From contig CAJQTG010000003.1 of assembly GCA_905618925.1 (NCBI GenBank), forward strand, positions 1 to 64,000: 64,000 bases of DNA, read 5' to 3'. The DNA comes from an uncultured Candidatus Thioglobus sp. GTDB lineage: Bacteria; Pseudomonadota; Gammaproteobacteria; PS1; Pseudothioglobaceae. Below the pieces are notes generated by a model. The model was given only the letters and a program-made list of their open reading frames with translations. It did not search any database and was not told the DNA's origin. The translations under genes were made by a program, and so were the position numbers. Of this stretch, positions 8,249-40,649 are shown piece by piece (within the stretch, counting starts at the first letter, position 1; every line of letters starts with the position of its first letter).

Positions 8249-9211
8249 CTAACTACATTGATTTGCAGTAATTACCACAGTATTAACTATCTCATCCACG
8301 CTACAACCTCTAGATAAATCATTAACTGGTTTTGCAAGTCCCTGAAGAATTGGTCCTATTGCTTTGGCGCCTGAGAACCTCTGAACCAGCTTGTAACCTA
8401 TATTTGCAGCATCAAGATTTGGAAAAATTAAGACGTTCGCAGGCGGCGTAAATGGTGTCTCAGGATATTTAATCTTTAAGATTTCTTGGTCTAGCGCGGC
8501 GTCAAGCTGAATGTTGCCTATTATTTGAGCATTTGGAAGCTTAGATTTTAGGATATCGGTTGCATTTTTAACTTTATCAACCTCTGAATGTTTGGCACTT
8601 TGATTTGTTGAAAATGAAAGCATAGCCAACTTAGGCTCTTCCTCTAAAAACAATTTTGCAGTTTCATAAGCACTATTAGCAATTTCTGCAAGCTCTTCAG
8701 AGTTTGGATTAATATTCATTGCACAATCTGAAAAAATCATATTTTCACCATACATTTTGTGATTCTGATCAAACGCCATTAAAAACAAGCTCGATACAAG
8801 TTTGCTGTCTTCATAAACGCCAATAATTCGTAGTGCATTACTAAGTACCTCTTGACTTGGAGTTATAGCTCCCGTGACAACGCCATCAACATCACCTCTA
8901 TATAAGGCAATCATTGCAAATACATTTGGATTTGATAGCATTTCAAGAGCAACTTCTAAAGTAATACCTTTATGTCTTCTTCTTTCAAATAAGGTTTGGG
9001 CATACTCGGCCTTCAAATCTTCGTTTTCACGGTTTATTGTCTCTATACCAAGAGAAGTGTCTGCATTTGTATCAAAAAGAACAATTTGAGCAATTTTTTG
9101 ACTTGTAAGGATTTGCGCCGCCTCTAGGACTCGAGAGTCACTAGATTCAGGTAATAAGATTCGTGGGAATTTAGCTTTAGCCTTGTTGGATAAATCTTCT
9201 AATAACGCCAT
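8249..9211 (-). CDS. pta: Phosphate acetyltransferase (short PTA_PTB type)
   Basis: ILLPESSDSRVLEAA N-terminus, SSLFLMAF, FSDCAMNINPN, ANVLIFPNLDAANIGYKL, GPILQGLAKPVNDLSRG. Confidence 0.9.
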   Translation of the reverse strand: MALLEDLSNKAKAKFPRILLPESSDSRVLEAAQILTSQKIAQIVLFDTNADTSLGIETINRENEDLKAEYAQTLFERRRHKGITLEVALEMLSNPNVFAMIALYRGDVDGVVTGAITPSQEVLSNALRIIGVYEDSKLVSSLFLMAFDQNHKMYGENMIFSDCAMNINPNSEELAEIANSAYETAKLFLEEEPKLAMLSFSTNQSAKHSEVDKVKNATDILKSKLPNAQIIGNIQLDAALDQEILKIKYPETPFTPPANVLIFPNLDAANIGYKLVQRFSGAKAIGPILQGLAKPVNDLSRGCSVDEIVNTVVITANQCS

Positions 9212-9296: not shown

Positions 9297-12206
9297 TTAG
9301 TTAGGACTATACTGGTTTGCAATTTTAAGACGTTGAATTTTTCCAGATGGACCTTTGGGTAATGGCTCATCAACAAAAATTATTTGACTGGGCGTCTTAT
9401 ATTCTCCAAGATCTGCTTTACAAAGAGCAAGCAATTCCTCTTCATTAGCAATCAAATTATCTTTCAAAAAAACACAAGCTGAAATTTCTTCACCATAGTT
9501 TTCATCTTTAATGCCAAATGTACACGCCTCCAATACGGCATTATGCTTATAAAGCGTGTCATCAATCTCTCTAGGTGATATGTTTTCCCCGCCTTTAATA
9601 ATTAACTCTTTCTTTCTGCCAGTTATAAAAAAGAAGCCGTCCTCATCTTCAACTCCAAGATCACCAGTCAAAAAATAACCATCTTTATTAAAAGCTTTTG
9701 TTGTTGCCTCTTCGTTCTTGAAGTATTCTAAAAGAACATTATCACCCTTAATAACAAGCTCTCCAGCGTTTCCAAAAACTAGGTAATTTCCAGAGTTATC
9801 TATAATTTTAACTTCATTGCCATAAGGTCTTCCTGCAGAGCCATGCTTACATTGATCCATAGGGTTTGAAAGGATTTGAGCTGACGTTTCAGTAAGGCCC
9901 ATTGTTTCAATAATTTTAACATTAAACACTTTTTCAAACTTCTTATGGATCTCCGGAGAAAGAGGTGCTGATGCAGATCTACCAAAGCGAAGATTTTTAA
10001 GATTTAATGAACTTACATCAAAATTATCATTAAGCAAATAATTAATAATTGTAGGAACAACACTAAACCAAGTGCATTTATATTTATCAATAATATTCCA
10101 AAAATTACTAACGCTAAACTTGCTAACAATAACAACACAGCTATTACTTACTAAGGCGCATGCAATGGAAACCATTTCAGCGTTAATATGATAAAGAGGC
10201 AGCACGCAAAAAGACACATCGTCTTTTTTAATTTCATGTGCTAAAGCGGTATTTTTTCCACCAGCTAAAACATTTTTATGTGAAAGGAGAACCCCTTTTG
10301 GTACGCCAGTTGTTCCTGAGGTATAAATCAATACTGCTGGCGTATCTGACAATAAAGTCTTGGTAGTTGAATTAGAAATCTTCTGACTACTAATTTCAAA
10401 GTCATTCGCTTTTTCATGACATGTTACTTGGACATTTGAAGCTTTAAGAGTATCACTGAACTTATCAATATAGATCTTAGAGGCAAGTATTAGCTTGCAC
10501 TCTGAGTGTTCTATTGTGTACTTAATTTGTTTAGCTCCTGCCAGCACATTTAATGGCACAATTGTTATGCCATGATACATTGCCGCAATAAAAAGAAGTG
10601 AAGATGCATAGCCATTATCAAGCATAAATCCAACTTTATCACGCGTATGAATATTGTTTTGCTGAAAAAAGATACCTAGCTTCAAAATATCTTTTTTAAG
10701 TTGGCCATATGAAATATGAAGGTCTAAATCTGCATCAATCAAATAGTTTTTATTTGGCGTAGTTTCTGCAAATTGATTAACCAGCTCTGTAATAGTAGAA
10801 GGCGTTAATGAATATTTTTCCCAGTAACTAGAAAAGATATCATCTTCAGAGGGCTCATCAGCTTTAATGGTCTTAACTATTTTGGTTATATTTAGGTAGT
10901 GCTTATAGTTTAAGTTTTCATCTGTAATATTATTACCCCATGTTCCACAGCCCATCGATAATGAAAATGGAAGCCCATTATCAAAGTTACCGCCAGTTGC
11001 AAAACAATGTGCTTGATTTACTATAATTCTACAGACAGGCAGCTCATTTCCAAGCCTCAAAATATTGTCTTTATTTTCACTATGGATACTGCAAGAATGT
11101 CCTTTACCTTGGTTCTCAAGAATGGTCGTTGCAATTTCAACGGCATGATCAAAATTTTTGGCTCTATAAACTGCTAAAACAGGTGAAAGTTTTTCCATTG
11201 AAAATGGGTGGTCATTACCAACATTTTCTTCTTCAACCATAAGGAATTTAGAGTTCACATGTTGCCCACTAAGACCTGCTATGGAGGCAATTTCATTAGA
11301 TTTTTTTGCAATTATATTTCGGTTTATGACGCCTTCTTTGCTCCACATATTTTTTTCAAGGATGACTTTTTCCTTTGAATTTAACAATGAACCACCCTCT
11401 TTTTTAAGTGATTTAATTAGTCCATCATAAATACTATCAAGAACAATAATACTGTTCTCAGAAGAGCAACTTGTTGCATTATCAAAAGTCTTTGAAGTCA
11501 TAATTTTGTGAGATGCGTCATCTAAATTGGCGCTATCGTCTACTATTGCAGGAACGTTGCCAACTCCAACACCTAGCGTTGGGGTACCGCTTTGTAATGC
11601 TCTTTGAATATTATTTTGTGATCCAGTTGCCACAATTAAATCAACAAGTTTTGATAATTCGCTCGTATCATCTTTGCTTATTGGTTCAGGCAATGATTGA
11701 ACGATATTTTTAGGTGCCCCAATACGCTGAAGGGCTTTTTGCATCAGTTCGACTACTTTACTGCAAATAAATGCACCTTTTGGTGATGGCGCCAATATGA
11801 TTGCATTTCTACATTTAAGTGCATTAATTGTTTTATTTAAGGGAGTTGCAATAGGGTTTGTTGAGGGCACAATTGCGCCAACCACCCCTACCGGCCTGGC
11901 AATCTCAGTTAGGCCTTTTTTAATATCTTGATTAATAACTCCAACAGTTTTAACGCTTTTTAAATCTCTAAGGAGTCCAATAGTTTTTCGTCGATTTTTT
12001 CTCATCTTGTCTTCAACATTTCCAAGACCAGTATGTTTTACTGCCATCTCAGAAAGTTCTTGATTATTTTCAGGCTGAATTACTTCCCAGGCAACTGCCA
12101 GGATTAATTCATCAATCTGTTCTTGAGAGTAATCATTAATAATTGATTGTGCTTTTTTTGCCTCAATGACAATACTTTCTATGGATGATTTTTGTTTAAT
12201 AGTCAT
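9297..12206 (-). CDS. Fusion protein: N-terminal CoA-acylating aldehyde dehydrogenase (sulfoacetaldehyde dehydrogenase/EutE-like) plus C-terminal AMP-forming acyl-CoA ligase
   Basis: N-half: PVGVVGAIVPSTNPIATP, FDNATSCSSENSIIV with catalytic Cys. C-half: VLIYTSGTTGVPKGVLLSHKN, TMGLTETSAQ, YFLTGDLG, GRKKELIIKGGENISPREID, PKGPSGKIQR. Continuous 969-aa ORF; junction near aa 450-470. Confidence 0.9.
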   Translation of the reverse strand: MTIKQKSSIESIVIEAKKAQSIINDYSQEQIDELILAVAWEVIQPENNQELSEMAVKHTGLGNVEDKMRKNRRKTIGLLRDLKSVKTVGVINQDIKKGLTEIARPVGVVGAIVPSTNPIATPLNKTINALKCRNAIILAPSPKGAFICSKVVELMQKALQRIGAPKNIVQSLPEPISKDDTSELSKLVDLIVATGSQNNIQRALQSGTPTLGVGVGNVPAIVDDSANLDDASHKIMTSKTFDNATSCSSENSIIVLDSIYDGLIKSLKKEGGSLLNSKEKVILEKNMWSKEGVINRNIIAKKSNEIASIAGLSGQHVNSKFLMVEEENVGNDHPFSMEKLSPVLAVYRAKNFDHAVEIATTILENQGKGHSCSIHSENKDNILRLGNELPVCRIIVNQAHCFATGGNFDNGLPFSLSMGCGTWGNNITDENLNYKHYLNITKIVKTIKADEPSEDDIFSSYWEKYSLTPSTITELVNQFAETTPNKNYLIDADLDLHISYGQLKKDILKLGIFFQQNNIHTRDKVGFMLDNGYASSLLFIAAMYHGITIVPLNVLAGAKQIKYTIEHSECKLILASKIYIDKFSDTLKASNVQVTCHEKANDFEISSQKISNSTTKTLLSDTPAVLIYTSGTTGVPKGVLLSHKNVLAGGKNTALAHEIKKDDVSFCVLPLYHINAEMVSIACALVSNSCVVIVSKFSVSNFWNIIDKYKCTWFSVVPTIINYLLNDNFDVSSLNLKNLRFGRSASAPLSPEIHKKFEKVFNVKIIETMGLTETSAQILSNPMDQCKHGSAGRPYGNEVKIIDNSGNYLVFGNAGELVIKGDNVLLEYFKNEEATTKAFNKDGYFLTGDLGVEDEDGFFFITGRKKELIIKGGENISPREIDDTLYKHNAVLEACTFGIKDENYGEEISACVFLKDNLIANEEELLALCKADLGEYKTPSQIIFVDEPLPKGPSGKIQRLKIANQYSPN

Positions 12207-12231: not shown

Positions 12232-12264
12232 TTTACTGGAGAGCTTTAATAGCCCTCCAGTAAA
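12232..12264. other. Stem-loop between tctC and fusion gene
   Basis: TTTACTGGAG (12232-12241) pairs with CTCCAGTAAA (12255-12264); no strong T-tract, so possible attenuator or processing site rather than a classical terminator. Confidence 0.45.
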
Positions 12265-12286: not shown

Positions 12287-13246
12287 TTACTTCAGGCCCG
12301 CTAGGAGTTCGGTAAGATAAGCCTGTCTTTCATTCCACATGGTAATAACTTCGTCTCTAGACATCACTCTTGATGGTGAGTTAGTAGACTTCATTTTTCC
12401 TTGTGTTTTCTTATCATTAAACATTGCAGGAACTTTGCTCGCAAGGTAATCTACAACATCTTGAGGTGTTCCAGAAGGAACCATTAGCCCACGGAAATTG
12501 ACACTTGAATCGTCAACGTCAACACCGCTTTCCATAAGTGTAGGAACATCAGGTAAATACGCATGTCTTGTAAGGTCTGCAACAGCTAGTATTTTAAGAT
12601 CAGCTGCGCTTCTTGCAGAGTCAGAAAGATTATTAAAACCAGCAACTGTTTCACCAGCCTTAACCATTCTAAGAGCATCTACACCACCCGAAGCAGGAAT
12701 ATAAGTTAGATTTGCACCAGATGCTTTTGCAAACTGCAAGAAAGCAATATGATGTCCAACAAATTTTCCAGCGCCACTAATTGTAACAGCACCTGGATTT
12801 GCTTCAGCGTGAGCAAGCAGTTCCCCTACCGTATTAAATGGACTATCTTTACCAACAATTAAGACTGCAGGATCTGCACCCCAATTTCCAAGAGGTTCAA
12901 GGTTGTTGATGTTGTACTTAGTATCAAAAACAATAGACTGTGCTATAAAGTGTGGAACATTATAAGCACCAAGCATGTAGCCATCTTGTGAAGCCTCACC
13001 TGCAAACCAATTCCAACCTGTTCTTCCACCAGCACCTGGCTTATTTAGGATGTAGATTGGCTGACCAATAAGCGCCTCTTTACCTGAGGCAAGTGTTGCA
13101 ATTCTAGCTTGGAAATCTGTCGCTCCACCAGGTCCATAAGCTACCATTACGCCAATTGGCTTTTCAGGGTAATCAGCCTGAGCTGGCAATAACATCATAG
13201 ATGCTACAGCCAACAAGGCCACTTTAGTTATATTAATAATTTTCAT
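12287..13246 (-). CDS. Tripartite tricarboxylate transporter substrate-binding protein (TctC family)
   Basis: Signal peptide, YPEKPIGVMVAYGPGGATDFQAR, ILNKPGAGGRTGWNW. Confidence 0.9.
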   Translation of the reverse strand: MKIINITKVALLAVASMMLLPAQADYPEKPIGVMVAYGPGGATDFQARIATLASGKEALIGQPIYILNKPGAGGRTGWNWFAGEASQDGYMLGAYNVPHFIAQSIVFDTKYNINNLEPLGNWGADPAVLIVGKDSPFNTVGELLAHAEANPGAVTISGAGKFVGHHIAFLQFAKASGANLTYIPASGGVDALRMVKAGETVAGFNNLSDSARSAADLKILAVADLTRHAYLPDVPTLMESGVDVDDSSVNFRGLMVPSGTPQDVVDYLASKVPAMFNDKKTQGKMKSTNSPSRVMSRDEVITMWNERQAYLTELLAGLK

Positions 13247-13262: not shown

Positions 13263-13694
13263 TTAAAACAAACCTTCTGGTGTATGAACTTTTAAAAGTA
13301 GTGTAAACAATCCATATAGTGCAAAAGTAAACACAAATGCGACACCCAATTTTATGAGTAACACACGCCAAAAGTCTTTTGATTCCGTAGGCTTGGTGTA
13401 GTACATTACAAGCGTAAAGAATACGATCATTGAGGCTAAGTAGAAGCCCAGTATTTTTAGTAGTAAGATAAATGCTGAAGCGATTGCTATGCCTGGCATT
13501 AAATCTTTGAAATTAGTTGATTTGTCAGCCTCACCCTTCTCAAACCAAAGCATTATCGTTAAGATAGCAATAGTTGCAGATATGAGTCTTGGAAATAGAT
13601 AGTTCTCTGAATCACCTAAAATAAATGATGAATAAACTAGAATGGCACTAACTAGTGTAACAATAACGGTTGATATTTTTATTTGACTATTCAT
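13263..13694 (-). CDS. Tripartite tricarboxylate transporter small membrane subunit (TctB family)
   Basis: About 143 aa with 4 predicted TM segments, between tctC and tctA homologs. Confidence 0.85.
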   Translation of the reverse strand: MNSQIKISTVIVTLVSAILVYSSFILGDSENYLFPRLISATIAILTIMLWFEKGEADKSTNFKDLMPGIAIASAFILLLKILGFYLASMIVFFTLVMYYTKPTESKDFWRVLLIKLGVAFVFTFALYGLFTLLLKVHTPEGLF

Positions 13695-15184
13695 GCTTTG
13701 ATTTTTTTAGATTTTCTACTGGAATATACTCCGTACACAATGGAAGCAATACATAGCGAAATTAAAACAATATTTATTGTTCCTGACGTAAAGTGTTGAA
13801 AAGAGCTTCCTTTTGCGTTTCCTATAAGGTTACCAAGTAGAAATTTTTCCTCTGTCATTGTTCCTAGTATTAAGCCTAATACAACTGGAACTGGGCTAAA
13901 TCCAGCTTTACTTCCAAAATACATTAGAGTTCCCAATGTAAACATAATCAAAACATCAGAATAGTTATTTTGAATGCTATAAGTTCCAAATACAGCTAGT
14001 AATAAAATACCAACTGCCATATAGTTATCAGGCACTTTCATAATCCATTTACTATGTCTACTAAGGAATAAACCAATAATCAACATTAGAATTTGTGCGA
14101 TTATTAGTGAATCAATAAAAGTCCATATAACTTCAGGGTTTTTAGTAAATATATCGTGCCCTGGGAATATCCCATGAATTAATAATCCGCCTAGTAGAAC
14201 TGCAGCAGTAGGACTGCCGGGAATACTTAAAGTAAGAAGTGGAATTAGAGAAGGGCCAACCATAGAATTGTTAGCACTCTCAGCAGCAATAATTGCTTCA
14301 GGCTCTCCTTTTCCATAATTTTCCCTATTTGAGCTTACTTTTTTAGATTGGTCATAAGCAACAATGCCTGCAATCTGTCCACCCGCACCTGGAATAATTC
14401 CAATTATTGAGCCAATAATAGATCCAATTGATAAAGCTTTAAGTTTGCTAAAAACAAGTTTAAAAGATTGAATCAATGTTGCATCACCAGTAGCTGAAAA
14501 AACTCGGTTCTTCTTAGCATAAAAATTCTCTAAAAGATTCCAGACTTGAGGCATTGCGAATAAACCAATTAACCCAACCACAATATGAACGCCACTTTCA
14601 AGATGATCTGTAAAAACAAACCTTTCAACTGCATTTGTAGGGTGCTCTCCAATTGTTGCAAGCATTAATCCAAATAGTCCTGATAATAAGCCTTTAATGA
14701 CTGATTTTGAGTCCAGAGTCGCAATAATTGTGATACCTAGAATTGCAACCCAAAACATCTCTGTGGACATAAACTTTAATGACAATGCAGCAAGTGGTGG
14801 AGTAAAAAATATGAGAATAAATACTCCAAAAATACCACCAACAAATGAACTAATAAAACAATAATGTAGGGCATTCTTAGCTTTACCGTTCTGCGCCATT
14901 TTATGTCCATCCAATGCAGTTGCAATGTTTGCAGGAGCGCCAGGAACGTTGACAAGTATTGCACTAATTGCACCTCCAGCAACAGTTGCTGTGTACATAG
15001 CGCCAAGTAATATCAGCCCACTTTCGGGCTTCATATGAAATGTAAATGGAATAAGAAGTGCAACAGACATTGTTGGACTTAATCCTGGAAGTGCTCCAAG
15101 AATAATACCGGCAAAAGTCCCTCCTACCAGAAGAGCAATATGATAAACAGTGAAGACATTATCAAAGTAGTTTAAAAATTCCAT
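13691..15184 (-). CDS. Tripartite tricarboxylate transporter large permease (TctA family)
   Basis: GTFAGIILGALPGLSPTMSVALLIPFTF and IPGAGGQIAGIVAYDQSKK motifs. Confidence 0.93.
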   Translation of the reverse strand: MEFLNYFDNVFTVYHIALLVGGTFAGIILGALPGLSPTMSVALLIPFTFHMKPESGLILLGAMYTATVAGGAISAILVNVPGAPANIATALDGHKMAQNGKAKNALHYCFISSFVGGIFGVFILIFFTPPLAALSLKFMSTEMFWVAILGITIIATLDSKSVIKGLLSGLFGLMLATIGEHPTNAVERFVFTDHLESGVHIVVGLIGLFAMPQVWNLLENFYAKKNRVFSATGDATLIQSFKLVFSKLKALSIGSIIGSIIGIIPGAGGQIAGIVAYDQSKKVSSNRENYGKGEPEAIIAAESANNSMVGPSLIPLLTLSIPGSPTAAVLLGGLLIHGIFPGHDIFTKNPEVIWTFIDSLIIAQILMLIIGLFLSRHSKWIMKVPDNYMAVGILLLAVFGTYSIQNNYSDVLIMFTLGTLMYFGSKAGFSPVPVVLGLILGTMTEEKFLLGNLIGNAKGSSFQHFTSGTINIVLISLCIASIVYGVYSSRKSKKIKA

Positions 15185-15217: not shown

Positions 15218-15255
15218 TCATATATATGTCTAATGAAACTCATATATATGTGTAA
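15218..15255. promoter_or_regulatory. Two phased 16-bp repeats with CATATATATG palindromic cores; candidate operator for the adjacent GntR regulator
   Basis: TCATATATATGTCTAA (15218-15233) and TCATATATATGTGTAA (15240-15255), 22 bp apart, in the divergent tctA/gntR intergenic region. Confidence 0.6.
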
Positions 15256-15379
15256 AACATCGTACACCGGACGTATATAAAAGTCAATAAAAAATATTTA
15301 ATGCTAAAAAGTGTAAAACTAAATGAGTATACTGATTGACCTATTGTCATCATAATTTAACAAAATTAGTCTTATTAAA

Positions 15380-16102
15380 ATGAATAAAAAGCTATACCAA
15401 ACTGTTATAGATTATATAAATATTCAAATAAGCAGTGGTAAGCTGACCATTGGTGATTTAATTCCATCTGAGTCGCAACTTTCTAAATTACTTAACGTAA
15501 GTGTTGGTACTGTCAGAAAAGCTATTGACAAACTTGAGCATAATAAAGTTCTTTATCGTCATCATGGTAAGGGAACTTATATATCTGACTATGGATTTGA
15601 TAATAGTATTTTTAATTTCTTTAGTTATGGAAACCAGACTGGGTCATCAATTCGAATATACAAAACCACACCTATCAGAAAAAAAGTTAAAGCGACCTCT
15701 GAGATTTCATTTCAATTAGGTATAAATCAAGCTGATGATGTTATTTATCTAGAGAGAAGAGGATATATTGATAAAAAAAATCCTATTATTATTGAAAAAT
15801 CTTGGTGGGTTGCTGACGTTGTAGAAGGACTTCAAAAGCCTTCACTTCATATACCTGATCTTCTTTATGCTGTTATTTTTAAAGAGTTTGATACTCAAAT
15901 TAACTCTTCTCAAGAAGTTTTGACTGCAGGCATTGCAGATGATGAAACTGCAAAAATTCTTCATATCAATAAAGGCGATCCAGTTGTAATATTAAATCGT
16001 CACTCCTATGCAAAAGATAAAGGGCTCGTTGAGTTCCGAATTACAACAGGAAGAGCGGATATGTTCAGTTATACCACTACAATTGGAACACCTCAGCCTT
16101 AA
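15380..16102 (+). CDS. GntR/HutC-family transcriptional regulator
   Basis: N-terminal wHTH (LIPSESQLSKLLNVSVGTVRKAIDKLEHNKVLYRHHGKGTYI) plus UTRA domain. Confidence 0.92.
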   Translation: MNKKLYQTVIDYINIQISSGKLTIGDLIPSESQLSKLLNVSVGTVRKAIDKLEHNKVLYRHHGKGTYISDYGFDNSIFNFFSYGNQTGSSIRIYKTTPIRKKVKATSEISFQLGINQADDVIYLERRGYIDKKNPIIIEKSWWVADVVEGLQKPSLHIPDLLYAVIFKEFDTQINSSQEVLTAGIADDETAKILHINKGDPVVILNRHSYAKDKGLVEFRITTGRADMFSYTTTIGTPQP

Positions 16103-16173: not shown

Positions 16174-16899
16174 ATGTCAAATGACTTCAAAAAAGAACGC
16201 ACTGATCTTGCAGCAGCTTTTCGCTGGGCTGCAAGGCTAAACATGCATGAAGCCGTTGCAAATCATTTCAGTTTAGCAGTTTCAGAAGATGGTTCAAAAT
16301 TTCTTCTAAACCCTATTGGAATGCACTTCTCACAGATTTGTGCAAGCGACCTTATCCTAGTTGATTCAAAAGATGAATCTACAATGTCTAAGCCAAATGC
16401 TCCAGATCCAACAGCCTGGGCAATACACGGCGCTTTGCATAGAAATAATCCGCAAGCAAGATGCATCCTTCACGTCCATCCTAAGTACGCAACCATCTTG
16501 TCTTGTTTAGAAGATAAAACCATGAAGCCGATTGATCAAAACACTATGCGCTTTTATGAAAAAGTATCGATAGATTATGAATATAGTGGTATGGGTCTTG
16601 GCAAAGAAGCGGAGAGATTAAGCACTATATTAGGGGATAACTCGGTAATGTTAATGGGTAACCATGGTGTTCTAACTGCTGCAAAAACAGTTGCTAAAGC
16701 GTTTGATGACCTTTTTTATTTTGAGAGATCCTGTGAAACACTGATTGGGGCCTACCAAACAGGAAAAGCATTACACCAAGTCTCACGCGAGATTGCTATA
16801 AAAACTGCAGCGCAATGGCAAAAATATGACGCATCGGATATGCATTTTGATGCTTTGAAAAGAATTTTAGATAAGGAAGAAGCAGACTATAAAAATTAG
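16174..16899 (+). CDS. Class II aldolase/adducin family protein
   Basis: NHFSLAVSEDG, HGALHRNNPQARCILHVHPKYATILS, LMGNHGVLTAAKTVAKAFDDLFYFE. Confidence 0.88.
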   Translation: MSNDFKKERTDLAAAFRWAARLNMHEAVANHFSLAVSEDGSKFLLNPIGMHFSQICASDLILVDSKDESTMSKPNAPDPTAWAIHGALHRNNPQARCILHVHPKYATILSCLEDKTMKPIDQNTMRFYEKVSIDYEYSGMGLGKEAERLSTILGDNSVMLMGNHGVLTAAKTVAKAFDDLFYFERSCETLIGAYQTGKALHQVSREIAIKTAAQWQKYDASDMHFDALKRILDKEEADYKN

Positions 16900-16939
16900 A
16901 TTTGCTTAATAGTGTTATTTTTTTTGATAAGGAGCTTTA

Positions 16940-18187
16940 ATGCCAAGTAATAATATCTCATTAGACGTCGATTACGTCAAAGCACAATTCCCAGCCTTTA
17001 ATGATCCAAAAAGTTCAAAATGGTCATTCTTTGAAAATGCTGGTGGAAGCTATGTTCCTACCAACGTTATTGAGCACTTAAATCATTTTATGACGTCTAC
17101 AAAAGTTCAGCCATACGCTGAATTTGATACCTCCGCCATTGCTGGTGACAATATGGATCAAGCCACCAAGCTTTTTGCTGAAATGATTAATGCAAAGACA
17201 GATGAAATAATTATAGGCGGCTCGACAACGATGAATATGTACGTATTATCCAATGCAATGAAAAGTCTCCTTAAGCCAGGGGATGAGGTCATCGTTACGA
17301 ACCAGGATCATGAGGCTAACGTTGGTGCATGGCGAAGACTTGCTGAGCATGGCGCCGTAATAAAAGAATGGCAAATTAATACAGACACTGCAGAACTTGA
17401 GATCGATGACCTTAAAGCACTTCTATCAGATAAAACCAAAATTGTTGCTGTTACGCACTGCTCGAATATAGTTGGGTCAATTAATGATTTAAAATCAATT
17501 GCTAAGTTAGTTCATGAGTACGACGCTTATATAGTTGGTGATGGCGTATCCTATGCGCCTCACGGTTTTCCAGACGTAAAGGACCTTGATGTCGATTTTT
17601 ACGCATTTAGTCTTTACAAGACGTTTGGTCCCCATCTTGGGCTTCTTTATGGAAAAAAAGAAATCCTAAGCAAGCTTCCCAATCAAAATCACGAATTCCT
17701 AGAAGGAGACGTTCCTTACACACTTAACCCTGGCGGACCCAACCATGAAGAGCTATCTTGTCTAATAGGTGTTTATGAGTACTTTAATAACTTATATGAG
17801 CATCATTTTCCCGGCAAAGAGGCCTCAACTAGAGAAAAAATTGAAGCTGTTAATGAGTTAATTGCTGTTCACGAAATGGAGATTGCAAACCCACTTCTTG
17901 ATTACATTAACTCTCGAGATGATATTAATCTTATCGGAAAAAACAAAATAGAGAATAAAGATAGAGCACCAACGATTGCCTTTACGATTAAAAACAAATC
18001 CTCAAAAGATGTAAGTAGTGAGCTTGTAAAAAATGGCATAGCAACTAGAAATGATAATTTCTATGCATGGCGATGTTTAAAGGCACTTGGAATTAGTACC
18101 GATGATGGCGTTGTTAGAACAAGTATGGTTCATTACAATACTCATGAGGATGTTAATAAACTGATAAGTGCTTTAAAAAATATTTAG
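16940..18187 (+). CDS. Aminotransferase class V (cysteine desulfurase-like)
   Basis: FFENAGGSYVP, GDEVIVTNQDHEANVGAWRR, DGVSYAPHG, FYAFSLYKTFGPHLGLLYGKKE (PLP Lys). Confidence 0.88.
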   Translation: MPSNNISLDVDYVKAQFPAFNDPKSSKWSFFENAGGSYVPTNVIEHLNHFMTSTKVQPYAEFDTSAIAGDNMDQATKLFAEMINAKTDEIIIGGSTTMNMYVLSNAMKSLLKPGDEVIVTNQDHEANVGAWRRLAEHGAVIKEWQINTDTAELEIDDLKALLSDKTKIVAVTHCSNIVGSINDLKSIAKLVHEYDAYIVGDGVSYAPHGFPDVKDLDVDFYAFSLYKTFGPHLGLLYGKKEILSKLPNQNHEFLEGDVPYTLNPGGPNHEELSCLIGVYEYFNNLYEHHFPGKEASTREKIEAVNELIAVHEMEIANPLLDYINSRDDINLIGKNKIENKDRAPTIAFTIKNKSSKDVSSELVKNGIATRNDNFYAWRCLKALGISTDDGVVRTSMVHYNTHEDVNKLISALKNI

Positions 18188-36838: not shown

Positions 36839-37789
36839 ATGCTTCGAATCACTTTTAGGCAATTACACTACTTTACCATCGTGGCTGAAGAGTTAAATAT
36901 AGCAGCCGCAGCTCGAAAGTTATTTATCTCGCAACCTGCAATAACAAATGCACTGAAATTACTCGAAGAAAACCTTGGCTCTCAATTACTTGTTCGCCAC
37001 CATGCTCGAGGCGTAACTCTTACCAGCGCAGGTAAGGACTTTCTAGTGCGTGCTATAGATTTATTAGCTCAAGCAAATGAACTAGAATTAAGCACTATTG
37101 ATTCAGGCCCATTATTACGTGGCAGATTGGAGGTTGGTTGTTATAGCAGTATTGCACCAATGTATATGCCTCGCTTAATCACAGAATTCTTAAACCTACA
37201 CCCGCAGGTTGATCTGCGTTTACATGAATCAAACCAAGGAGATTTGATAGCTAGTCTAATGCAGGGTGAACTTGATTATGTCATTACACCTAGTAATAAT
37301 TTAGGTCGAAATTTAATACAGAAACCCTTACTAAAACGACACCCCCACATCATATTAGGCTCCGACCATCCATTGACTTCAAAAACCAAAATTCATTTGA
37401 GCGAGCTAGTTGACTACCCCATGGTTTTATTGAACTTTGATTCCAGTCGAAACTATTTTATCGGCCTCTTTCGGTCCCATGGATTAGAGCCTTGGGTAAG
37501 ATATTGGTCACCATCTTTTGAAACTGTAAGAGGTATCGTTGCAAATGGGCTAGGTTATTCTATTTTAGTTACACGACCTAAATCAGATTTTGACTACAAT
37601 GGTCGCCCTTTATTTCTCCGACCTATTGCAGATGATGTTAATACAGATGATATTAGCCTAATAAGTGCTGAAACACGCCGTGCCACAAACTTGATGACAG
37701 CTTTTCAAGAATTTTCTGTAGAACACTTCAAAAAACTAGACAATGCTGAAAAATTATCTACAGATAACCATCACGAGAAAGGTCACTGA
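36839..37789 (+). CDS. LysR-family transcriptional regulator
   Basis: N-terminal HTH FTIVAEELNIAAAARKLFISQPAITNALKLLEENLGSQLLVRHHARGVTLTSAG. Confidence 0.92.
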   Translation: MLRITFRQLHYFTIVAEELNIAAAARKLFISQPAITNALKLLEENLGSQLLVRHHARGVTLTSAGKDFLVRAIDLLAQANELELSTIDSGPLLRGRLEVGCYSSIAPMYMPRLITEFLNLHPQVDLRLHESNQGDLIASLMQGELDYVITPSNNLGRNLIQKPLLKRHPHIILGSDHPLTSKTKIHLSELVDYPMVLLNFDSSRNYFIGLFRSHGLEPWVRYWSPSFETVRGIVANGLGYSILVTRPKSDFDYNGRPLFLRPIADDVNTDDISLISAETRRATNLMTAFQEFSVEHFKKLDNAEKLSTDNHHEKGH

Positions 37790-39146
37790 TAGTCTCAACA
37801 ATACTCTCCCTGAGTATTGCTACTAATTTATCTACCTCCTCTCTTGTCATTATTAAAGGTGGTGATAAAACGTTCATATGTGCTAAAGGTCGAACAATAA
37901 GTCCTCGCTTCTGACAATGGTCCGCTATTCGACTTCCCACTGCAGCATCCTCATGAATTAGTGACTTAGTCTTTTTATCAGCAACATTTTCGATACACAT
38001 CATGAATTTACTACCTCGAACTTCACCTACAATTTCAAGATTTTCTAATGTTTTTAACTGCTTTTCAAAATATACACCAACATCATTAACATGCTCACAG
38101 AGATTTTCCCTTTCCATAATTTCAATATTTTTTAATCCTGCTGCGCAGCAAACTGGATGACCTGAGTATGTAAAGCCATGAGTAAATAAAGCACCTTTGG
38201 CTTGAGGGATACTAATAACATCATAAATCTCATCCGAAAGTATTGTTGCACTTAAAGGAAGATAGCCTGAAGTTAGTCCTTTGGCACAAGTGATAATGTC
38301 TGGTTGTAAATCAAACTCATCTTTGGAAGCAAACATGTGGCCTAATCTCCCAAATGCAGTAACTACCTCATCAGAAACATAGAGTACCTCATATTTATTA
38401 CATACCTCTTGGGTTCGACGATGGTAACCGGGAGGTGGAACAATAACTCCACCTGCTCCCATAATGGGCTCAGCAAAAAATAAAGCAACATTATCTTGTC
38501 CTAGTTCTAGTATCTTATCTTCCAATTCCTGAACCTTGGTATCACAAAAATCCTCCAAGCTCATACCTTTAGCCCGTCGATAGGGGTTTGGACAGCTAAT
38601 ATGATGCACCATTTGCTTATCAATATCAAAACCAATGTGGTCAAACTCAACACCTGTAATTGACATTGCCATATAGGTAGAGCCATGGTAGCCATCAATT
38701 CGACTGATAATTTTTTTCTTGGTTGTTTTCCCTAACTGATTAAAATAAAAGTGAGCAATCCTTACAGCCGAATCATTTGCAACAGAGCCACCACAACCAT
38801 AAAACACATGATTTAAATTACCTGGTGCTAATTCAGCTAGTTTTGCAGCTAAAGCAGCAGCAGGAGGAGTGGTGTGATGACCAAAGGTTGAAAAGTATGG
38901 AATTCTCTTTGCTTGAGTGGCAATAGCATCCGCCATCTCCGCACGTCCATAGCCAATATTGACGCACCAAAGACCGCCAATACCATCTATATATTGCTTC
39001 CCTTCATTATCAGTTAGGGTTATTCCAGAAGCATCAGTTAGTACCATGGAGCCATCATCTTTAAAGGTTGAAAAATCAGTCCATGGATGAATAAAATGAT
39101 CCTTATCTTTCTGCCATATGTTTTTTTTATTTTTGTTCATAATCAA
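37758..39146 (-). CDS. Class III aminotransferase (polyamine/putrescine:pyruvate SpuC-like)
   Basis: GGLWCVNIGYGRAEMADA, FYGCGGSVANDSAVRIAHFY, DEVVTAFGRLGHMFAS, ITCAKGLTSGYLPL; polyamine gene neighbourhood. Confidence 0.87.
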   Translation of the reverse strand: MIMNKNKKNIWQKDKDHFIHPWTDFSTFKDDGSMVLTDASGITLTDNEGKQYIDGIGGLWCVNIGYGRAEMADAIATQAKRIPYFSTFGHHTTPPAAALAAKLAELAPGNLNHVFYGCGGSVANDSAVRIAHFYFNQLGKTTKKKIISRIDGYHGSTYMAMSITGVEFDHIGFDIDKQMVHHISCPNPYRRAKGMSLEDFCDTKVQELEDKILELGQDNVALFFAEPIMGAGGVIVPPPGYHRRTQEVCNKYEVLYVSDEVVTAFGRLGHMFASKDEFDLQPDIITCAKGLTSGYLPLSATILSDEIYDVISIPQAKGALFTHGFTYSGHPVCCAAGLKNIEIMERENLCEHVNDVGVYFEKQLKTLENLEIVGEVRGSKFMMCIENVADKKTKSLIHEDAAVGSRIADHCQKRGLIVRPLAHMNVLSPPLIMTREEVDKLVAILRESIVETISDLSRDGYL

Positions 39147-39164
39147 TCCTCGTAATAGTATTTA

Positions 39165-40649
39165 TTAGTATTCTATCCAACAGGTCTTTAAGCCACTGTA
39201 TTTATCAAATGAATGGAGAGATAAGTCACGTCCATTTCCTGATTGTTTAAAGCCACCAAATGGTGTTAGAGGGCTTAACTTATCACAAGCATTAACCGAT
39301 ACCGTTCCTGCAACTAGTGCGTCAGATACTCGTAAAGCCTGGGAAAGATCATCTGTCCAAACGGACGCTGCCAAACCGTAGATAGAGTTATTTGCCATTT
39401 CAATAGCCTCAGACTCTCCACTGAAGCTCATTACCGAAGCCACAGGTCCAAAAATCTCCTCTTGGGCAATAACATGATGAGGTTGAACTTCAATAATTGT
39501 TGGCTCAAGGTAGCAGTTACTTTCGTTAATATTGAGTCGCTTACCTCCGCAATAAAGTTTACCTTGAGCAATTCCTTTTTCAACGTAGTCCATCACTTTA
39601 TTCGCATGCTCAACAGTTACAAGAGCACCAGCTTTTGATGCTGGGTTTAGTGGATAACTTGGATGCCAATCTTGCGCATGTTTTTTTAAAAGTGTTAAAA
39701 ATTCATTCTTGATACTCGCTTCTACTAAAATTCTTGAGTTAGCACTACAGACTTCACCTTGATTAAAGAATATACCAAAAGCGGAAGCTGCAGCAGCAGC
39801 ATCTAAGTTTTTACAATTAGCAAAGATTAAATTAGGACTCTTGCCACCACATTCTAGCCAAATTTGTTTCATATTTGATTGGCCTGAATACTGCAAGAAA
39901 TATTTACCAACCTCGGTAGAGCCTGTAAAGGCAACACAATCAACATCCATATGAAGTCCTAACGCCTTCCCAGCATCGTGTCCAAGCCCTGTCACAACAT
40001 TAAGAACGCCATCCGGCAAGCCTGCTTTAGTTGCCAATTGGGCTAATCGAATCGCAGTAAATGAGGATTGTTCTGCTGGCTTTAATACTACTGAGTTTCC
40101 AACTGCCAAAGCGGGGGCACATTTCCAAATAGCCATGTCCAAAGGGAAGTTCCATGGCACAACTGCTCCAACAACGCCTAGCGGTTCCCGCCTGATCATA
40201 GCCAAACTACCACGGCCAGTTGGGGCAACTTCATCATATAGTTTATCAATTGCCTCAGCATGCCAGCGAAGAATCGCAGCAGCACCTGGAACATCAATTG
40301 TTAAAGCGTCAGTAATTGGCTTACCGGTATTAAGACTTTCTAGTAAAGCAAGCTCCTCAGTATTATTATCTATCAAATTGGCTAGTTCTATCAATGTTGC
40401 TTTTCTGTCTGAAGGGGAGGCATTGGCCCATACTCCAGAGTTAAAAGCAGCTCTACCTGCAGAAACTGCAGCATTCACATCTGATAAAGATCCTGCTGCA
40501 GTCTTAGTCATAACTTTACCAGTGGCAGGATTGATTGAATCAAACGTCGAGCCATTTTTAGCATCAACTGCTTTACCATTAATCCAGAAGTGATTAGGAA
40601 GATCAATCTCTAAAACTTTTGCCTCCCATTGTTTCTGACTGATATTCAT
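39165..40649 (-). CDS. NAD(P)-dependent aldehyde dehydrogenase (aminoaldehyde/gamma-Glu-GABA-aldehyde type)
   Basis: GVVGAVVPWNFPLDMAIWK, WLECGGKSPNLIFANCK, FFNQGEVCSANSR, PFGGFKQSGNGRD. Confidence 0.9.
   Translation of the reverse strand: MNISQKQWEAKVLEIDLPNHFWINGKAVDAKNGSTFDSINPATGKVMTKTAAGSLSDVNAAVSAGRAAFNSGVWANASPSDRKATLIELANLIDNNTEELALLESLNTGKPITDALTIDVPGAAAILRWHAEAIDKLYDEVAPTGRGSLAMIRREPLGVVGAVVPWNFPLDMAIWKCAPALAVGNSVVLKPAEQSSFTAIRLAQLATKAGLPDGVLNVVTGLGHDAGKALGLHMDVDCVAFTGSTEVGKYFLQYSGQSNMKQIWLECGGKSPNLIFANCKNLDAAAAASAFGIFFNQGEVCSANSRILVEASIKNEFLTLLKKHAQDWHPSYPLNPASKAGALVTVEHANKVMDYVEKGIAQGKLYCGGKRLNINESNCYLEPTIIEVQPHHVIAQEEIFGPVASVMSFSGESEAIEMANNSIYGLAASVWTDDLSQALRVSDALVAGTVSVNACDKLSPLTPFGGFKQSGNGRDLSLHSFDKYSGLKTCWIEY

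Follow-up and report, generated by a model that had tools for sequence, protein, structure and literature searches.

A predicted SauS-SauT fusion enzyme for sulfoacetate use in the marine SUP05-cluster genus Pseudothioglobus

In a stretch of 64,000 nucleotides from an uncultured Candidatus Thioglobus sp. (hereafter the window), we find a gene (9297..12206, minus strand, ATG start, with full-length orthologues elsewhere) whose 969-amino-acid product unites in one polypeptide the two activities named SauS and SauT. Its domain content, residues, single origin, selection, gene context and co-occurrence with Xsc can all be read in the genomes; from these we predict, with good confidence, a SauT-SauS enzyme for sulfoacetate use, in which substrate, direction and cofactor are what we infer. 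The sulfoacetate pathway is already known and the novelty is the fused form. We regard it as a variant of that pathway because SauS and SauT, fused here, are separate in the systems described so far. We found no report of a SauS-SauT fusion in the open-licence literature (most subscription papers lie outside it).

The earlier note, made from the letters of the window, had seen an N-terminal acylating aldehyde dehydrogenase joined to a complete C-terminal AMP-forming ligase in one 969-aa frame, and this description is borne out by the Pfam domains, by NF047625 and by the intact motifs. The domain search that it proposed recovers all three expected domains: Aldedh (aa 5-403), AMP-binding (478-829) and AMP-binding_C (880-956). 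The N-terminal half (10812..12206, minus strand, aa 1-465), a predicted CoA-acylating sulfoacetaldehyde dehydrogenase, scores 694 bits against NF047625, the NCBI equivalog for SauS (cut-off 600), over positions 3-462 of the 464 of the profile. The catalytic cysteine that the note had placed in TSCSSENS is C247 (codon 11466-11468, minus strand), invariant in relatives. The C-terminal half, a SauT-like AMP-forming ligase (9300..10799, minus strand, aa 470-969, start approximate), keeps the core motifs of such ligases, including the P-loop YTSGTTGVPKG (aa 628-638; 10293-10325, minus strand) and the C-terminal catalytic lysine K956 (codon 9339-9341, minus strand). In the alignment, C247, the P-loop and K956 are invariant or nearly so across fused and separate relatives. 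Among the matches listed for this half, no ligase model reaches its cut-off, and none is a SauT model of the profile libraries used. The junction (aa 459-474; 10785..10832, minus strand) corresponds to the end of separate SauS and the start of separate SauT; since the former aligns to about fused residue 468 and the latter to about 471, the join added practically no linker. The protein does not belong with AdhE: Pfam finds no C-terminal iron alcohol dehydrogenase domain, and the AdhE score is 393 against a cut-off of 951.

Could such a frame be an assembly chimera, or a frameshift merging two neighbouring genes? The idea is not absurd, as in relatives sauS and sauT frequently share a few bases or nearly abut (overlaps of 1-4 bases in loci L136, L147 and L148; spacers of 15-21 bases in L163 and L164), so that a small error could merge them. 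We nevertheless consider it already refuted. Of the 29 genomes of the genus (Pseudothioglobus, SUP05 cluster), 11 carry the fused frame at full length (about 970 aa), and two more (G017 and G007) carry ends of it at contig ends. One fusion-bearing genome (G006) is a single contig of 1.71 Mb, and the public records of the fusion come from SUP05-cluster MAGs, from Candidatus Pseudothioglobus aerophilus and from single-cell genomes. Besides the eleven full-length copies within the genus, one further relative has the fusion, and the open reading frame is thus no assembly join. The same intact frame recurs in a dozen genomes of these different kinds, down to the 68% identity of the most distant carrier (L161). 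Both halves of the fusion are under purifying selection, with dN/dS of 0.06-0.15 per half (unsaturated pairs), and this selection spans the junction (0.07-0.42 over aa 446-490, a region of few sites). The join at aa 450-470 that the note itself had named as a possible artefact is therefore ruled out.

Outside the genus, the dehydrogenase and the ligase are separate proteins, as the note had stated for described sulfoacetate catabolism. In two even samples, one from the class (369 genomes) and one from the phylum (399 genomes), each SauS outside the genus that passes the cut-off is encoded in a frame of normal length (472-541 aa), and all sampled SauS outside the fused clade are unfused. No such SauS occurs in three genomes from other genera of the family. 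Some long frames were considered as further fusions and rejected: that of L206 has no second domain, those of L177 and L174 run over other genes and seem to be long by chance, and AdhE frames were excluded by length and score. Unfused SauS typically stands in the gene order tctA-tctB-tctC-sauS-sauT; in L136 this is followed immediately by xsc and pta, and in L132 by xsc. Phylogenies of the two halves, which the note had suggested, place the SauS half among sauS, and the SauT half among sauT, of sauS-sauT pairs. In the ligase tree, 39 rows (the fused proteins and ligases of sauS genomes) stand apart from 8 paralogues with a support of 94. The fused rows form one clade in both trees (SH-aLRT 100 each), which indicates that the fused form arose once. 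The simplest history would be that, in an ancestor of the lineage, one event removed the stop/start separating two adjacent genes. The two trees disagree on the nearest unfused relatives; as both placements have support below 95, we make no claim of separate origins for the halves.

The genes around the fusion point to an import and conversion unit. Upstream, on the same minus strand, lie a tctC-type solute-binding protein (12287..13246, identified by domain search and synteny, a putative sulfoacetate receptor) and, by domain search, a tctB-type small membrane subunit (13263..13694) and a tctA-type large membrane subunit (13691..15184). A GntR/UTRA regulator (15380..16102, plus strand; domain search and synteny) is divergently oriented. 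Downstream by 85 nt is pta, encoding phosphate acetyltransferase (8249..9211, minus strand), the sole Pta match of the genome; pta follows the fusion in every congener whose contig extends there. More generally, each genome with any Pta match has one, and in fusion genomes it adjoins the fusion. The block formed by regulator, tctA-tctB-tctC, fusion and pta is kept in congeners. Beyond the regulator, class-II aldolase-like and class-V aminotransferase-like genes (window 16174-18187) flank it; the pair adjoins the regulator in one sub-clade only and lies away from the block in one sub-clade. Elsewhere in the window (37758-40649), a class-III aminotransferase adjoins an ordinary aldehyde dehydrogenase.

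Between regulator and tctA lies the palindrome ACTCATATATATGAGT (15239..15252, no strand, one mismatch here), directly after a promoter-like TTGACT-17-TACGAT (15259-15287, minus strand). Across loci, this takes the form TTGAC(A/T)-17-hexamer with the palindrome right behind. ACTCATATATATGAGT is kept within one mismatch at the fusion loci that span the regulator-tctA interval and at two unfused loci, L163 and L132; in the Xsc loci none was seen. One such match in a 64-kb window is not rare by chance; the argument lies in its conserved position, which makes the site a probable GntR operator, common to sauST clusters whether fused or not. A 14-bp RNA hairpin without a U-tract also lies between tctC and the fusion (12232..12264, minus strand; z -5.7).

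Xsc cleaves sulfoacetaldehyde with phosphate, giving acetyl phosphate and sulfite. In the class sample (369 genomes), it is present in 16/16 SauS carriers other than G000, against 4/352 of the remaining genomes (Fisher p ~1e-24, a guide and not an exact probability since genomes are not independent), and 11/11 further carriers, fused or unfused, L161 among them, have it as well. We relied on the class sample because the association within the genus is, alone, weak: of the 16 genomes that lack the fusion, 9 have Xsc too (p = 0.04). Xsc exceeds its cut-off in 12 of the 13 fusion-bearing genomes of the genus, the exception being the window's own assembly (70% complete), where no match reaches it. 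The best match there, an acetolactate-synthase-like frame, was rejected, being under the cut-off and followed by a small regulatory-subunit-like ORF. In G024, the nearest genome, whose fusion is 99% identical, Xsc lies about 103 kb off on the same contig, and by this synteny would be placed off the left end of the contig that holds the window; in four genomes of the genus, fusion and Xsc are 10-12 kb apart. The Xsc clusters of the genus (L122, L123 and others) contain a MocR-type regulator, a class-III aminotransferase and alanine dehydrogenase, and isocitrate lyase, AceK and malate synthase are encoded close by. This content is in keeping with taurine use and with growth on two-carbon units, and the clusters probably serve taurine.

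We propose sulfoacetate as substrate because of the tripartite importer upstream, the sole Pta downstream and the co-occurrence of SauS and Xsc in the class sample. The TctABC-type transporter would import sulfoacetate; the C-terminal half would convert it with ATP and (presumably free) CoA, via the acyl-AMP, to sulfoacetyl-CoA; the N-terminal half would take the acyl group onto C247 and reduce it to sulfoacetaldehyde at the expense of NAD(P)H; Xsc, whose gene would lie elsewhere on the chromosome, would then yield sulfite and acetyl phosphate, which the neighbouring Pta would turn into acetyl-CoA. A substrate shared by the two halves, another point on which the note had hung its reading, is favoured by the gene context, by the Xsc co-occurrence and by both halves branching among sauS-sauT pairs in the trees. 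One may object that the true substrate is some other small dianionic acid (malonate, oxalate, sulfopropionate or phosphonoacetate), which would give a different semialdehyde. The closest solved ligases are indeed oxalate-CoA ligases, then 4-coumarate and malonyl-CoA ligases, the closest solved dehydrogenases include the succinyl-CoA reductase SucD, and the matches listed hold no SauT model by which to score the ligase half. We nonetheless judge this improbable, as the SauS half exceeds an equivalog cut-off, the co-occurrence of SauS and Xsc is near-perfect, and Xsc or Pta adjoins several of the unfused clusters.

As to direction, the order from carboxylate to acyl-CoA to aldehyde that the note had inferred is supported, and remains our inference. 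An AMP-forming ligase with removal of pyrophosphate favours acyl-CoA formation. The reverse, from sulfoacetaldehyde to sulfoacetate for export with gain of ATP, is on record for the SqwD/SqwKL route (PMC12890257), but seems very improbable here, given an AMP-forming ligase, a binding-protein importer as neighbour, and Pta and Xsc as a sink for the aldehyde.

For the sulfoacetate enzyme that we favour, the benefit of joining may lie in equal dosage and possibly in the proximity of the two sites. An AlphaFold2 model (52 rows; mean pLDDT 85.6) shows two domains that look credible, and their mutual arrangement does not, as pTM is 0.57. Its Foldseek matches are oxalate-CoA ligases, MatB and other adenylate-forming enzymes on one side, and acetylating aldehyde dehydrogenase and SucD on the other. 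That the protein might be a carrier-free one-chain carboxylate reductase, channelling sulfoacetyl-CoA between its sites with a kinetic advantage at trace sulfoacetate, is an idea that we hold tentatively and think rather doubtful. The note had likened it to carboxylic acid reductases; the likeness stands for the logic (one polypeptide that spends ATP and NAD(P)H to turn a carboxylate into an aldehyde) and goes no further, the fusion having neither a phosphopantetheine carrier domain, as the note had pointed out, nor an SDR-type reductase, and instead an aldehyde dehydrogenase fold with cysteine catalysis.

Several known systems can be set beside this one. Cupriavidus necator H16 is summarised in PMC12625764 as having separate SauS and SauT, the MFS transporter SauU and a route via sulfoacetyl-CoA. 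The same two reactions are predicted here, with a SauS half that scores as the equivalog and a ligase half that groups with sauS-adjacent ligases; one protein and a TctABC-type transporter set our system apart from C. necator as summarised there. The TTT-associated sauST clusters of sponge symbionts resemble it in transporter type and gene content, but are described as sauS and sauT with no mention of a fusion (PMC12625764). Bilophila wadsworthia shares SauS-type reduction of sulfoacetyl-CoA and a TTT transporter (SauXYZ), and differs in its ADP-forming two-subunit ligase SauCD and in using isethionate and a glycyl radical enzyme in place of Xsc (PMC12890257). An engineered route for glycolate reduction follows the same logic, an AMP-forming ligase (acetyl-CoA synthetase) and then an acylating aldehyde dehydrogenase (PduP), with two separate enzymes and a different substrate (PMC6298115). 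There is also a second, separate SauS-like dehydrogenase (L128:9598-12986, G011:C5), 38% identical to the fusion and under the SauS cut-off. It is flanked by TRAP-transporter-like ORFs, by an AP-endonuclease-like TIM barrel and by a TPP enzyme whose ORF is without the C-terminal domain; L153, an alphaproteobacterial-phylum locus, resembles it, and this type of locus is possibly another C2 or sulfonate route.

The fusion offers a natural carboxylate-to-aldehyde enzyme in one chain and free of a carrier domain, which can be compared with two-enzyme engineered routes (PMC6298115). It may serve as a one-gene marker for the sulfoacetate trait, and indicates sulfoacetate as a source of carbon and energy for part of this marine SUP05-cluster genus.
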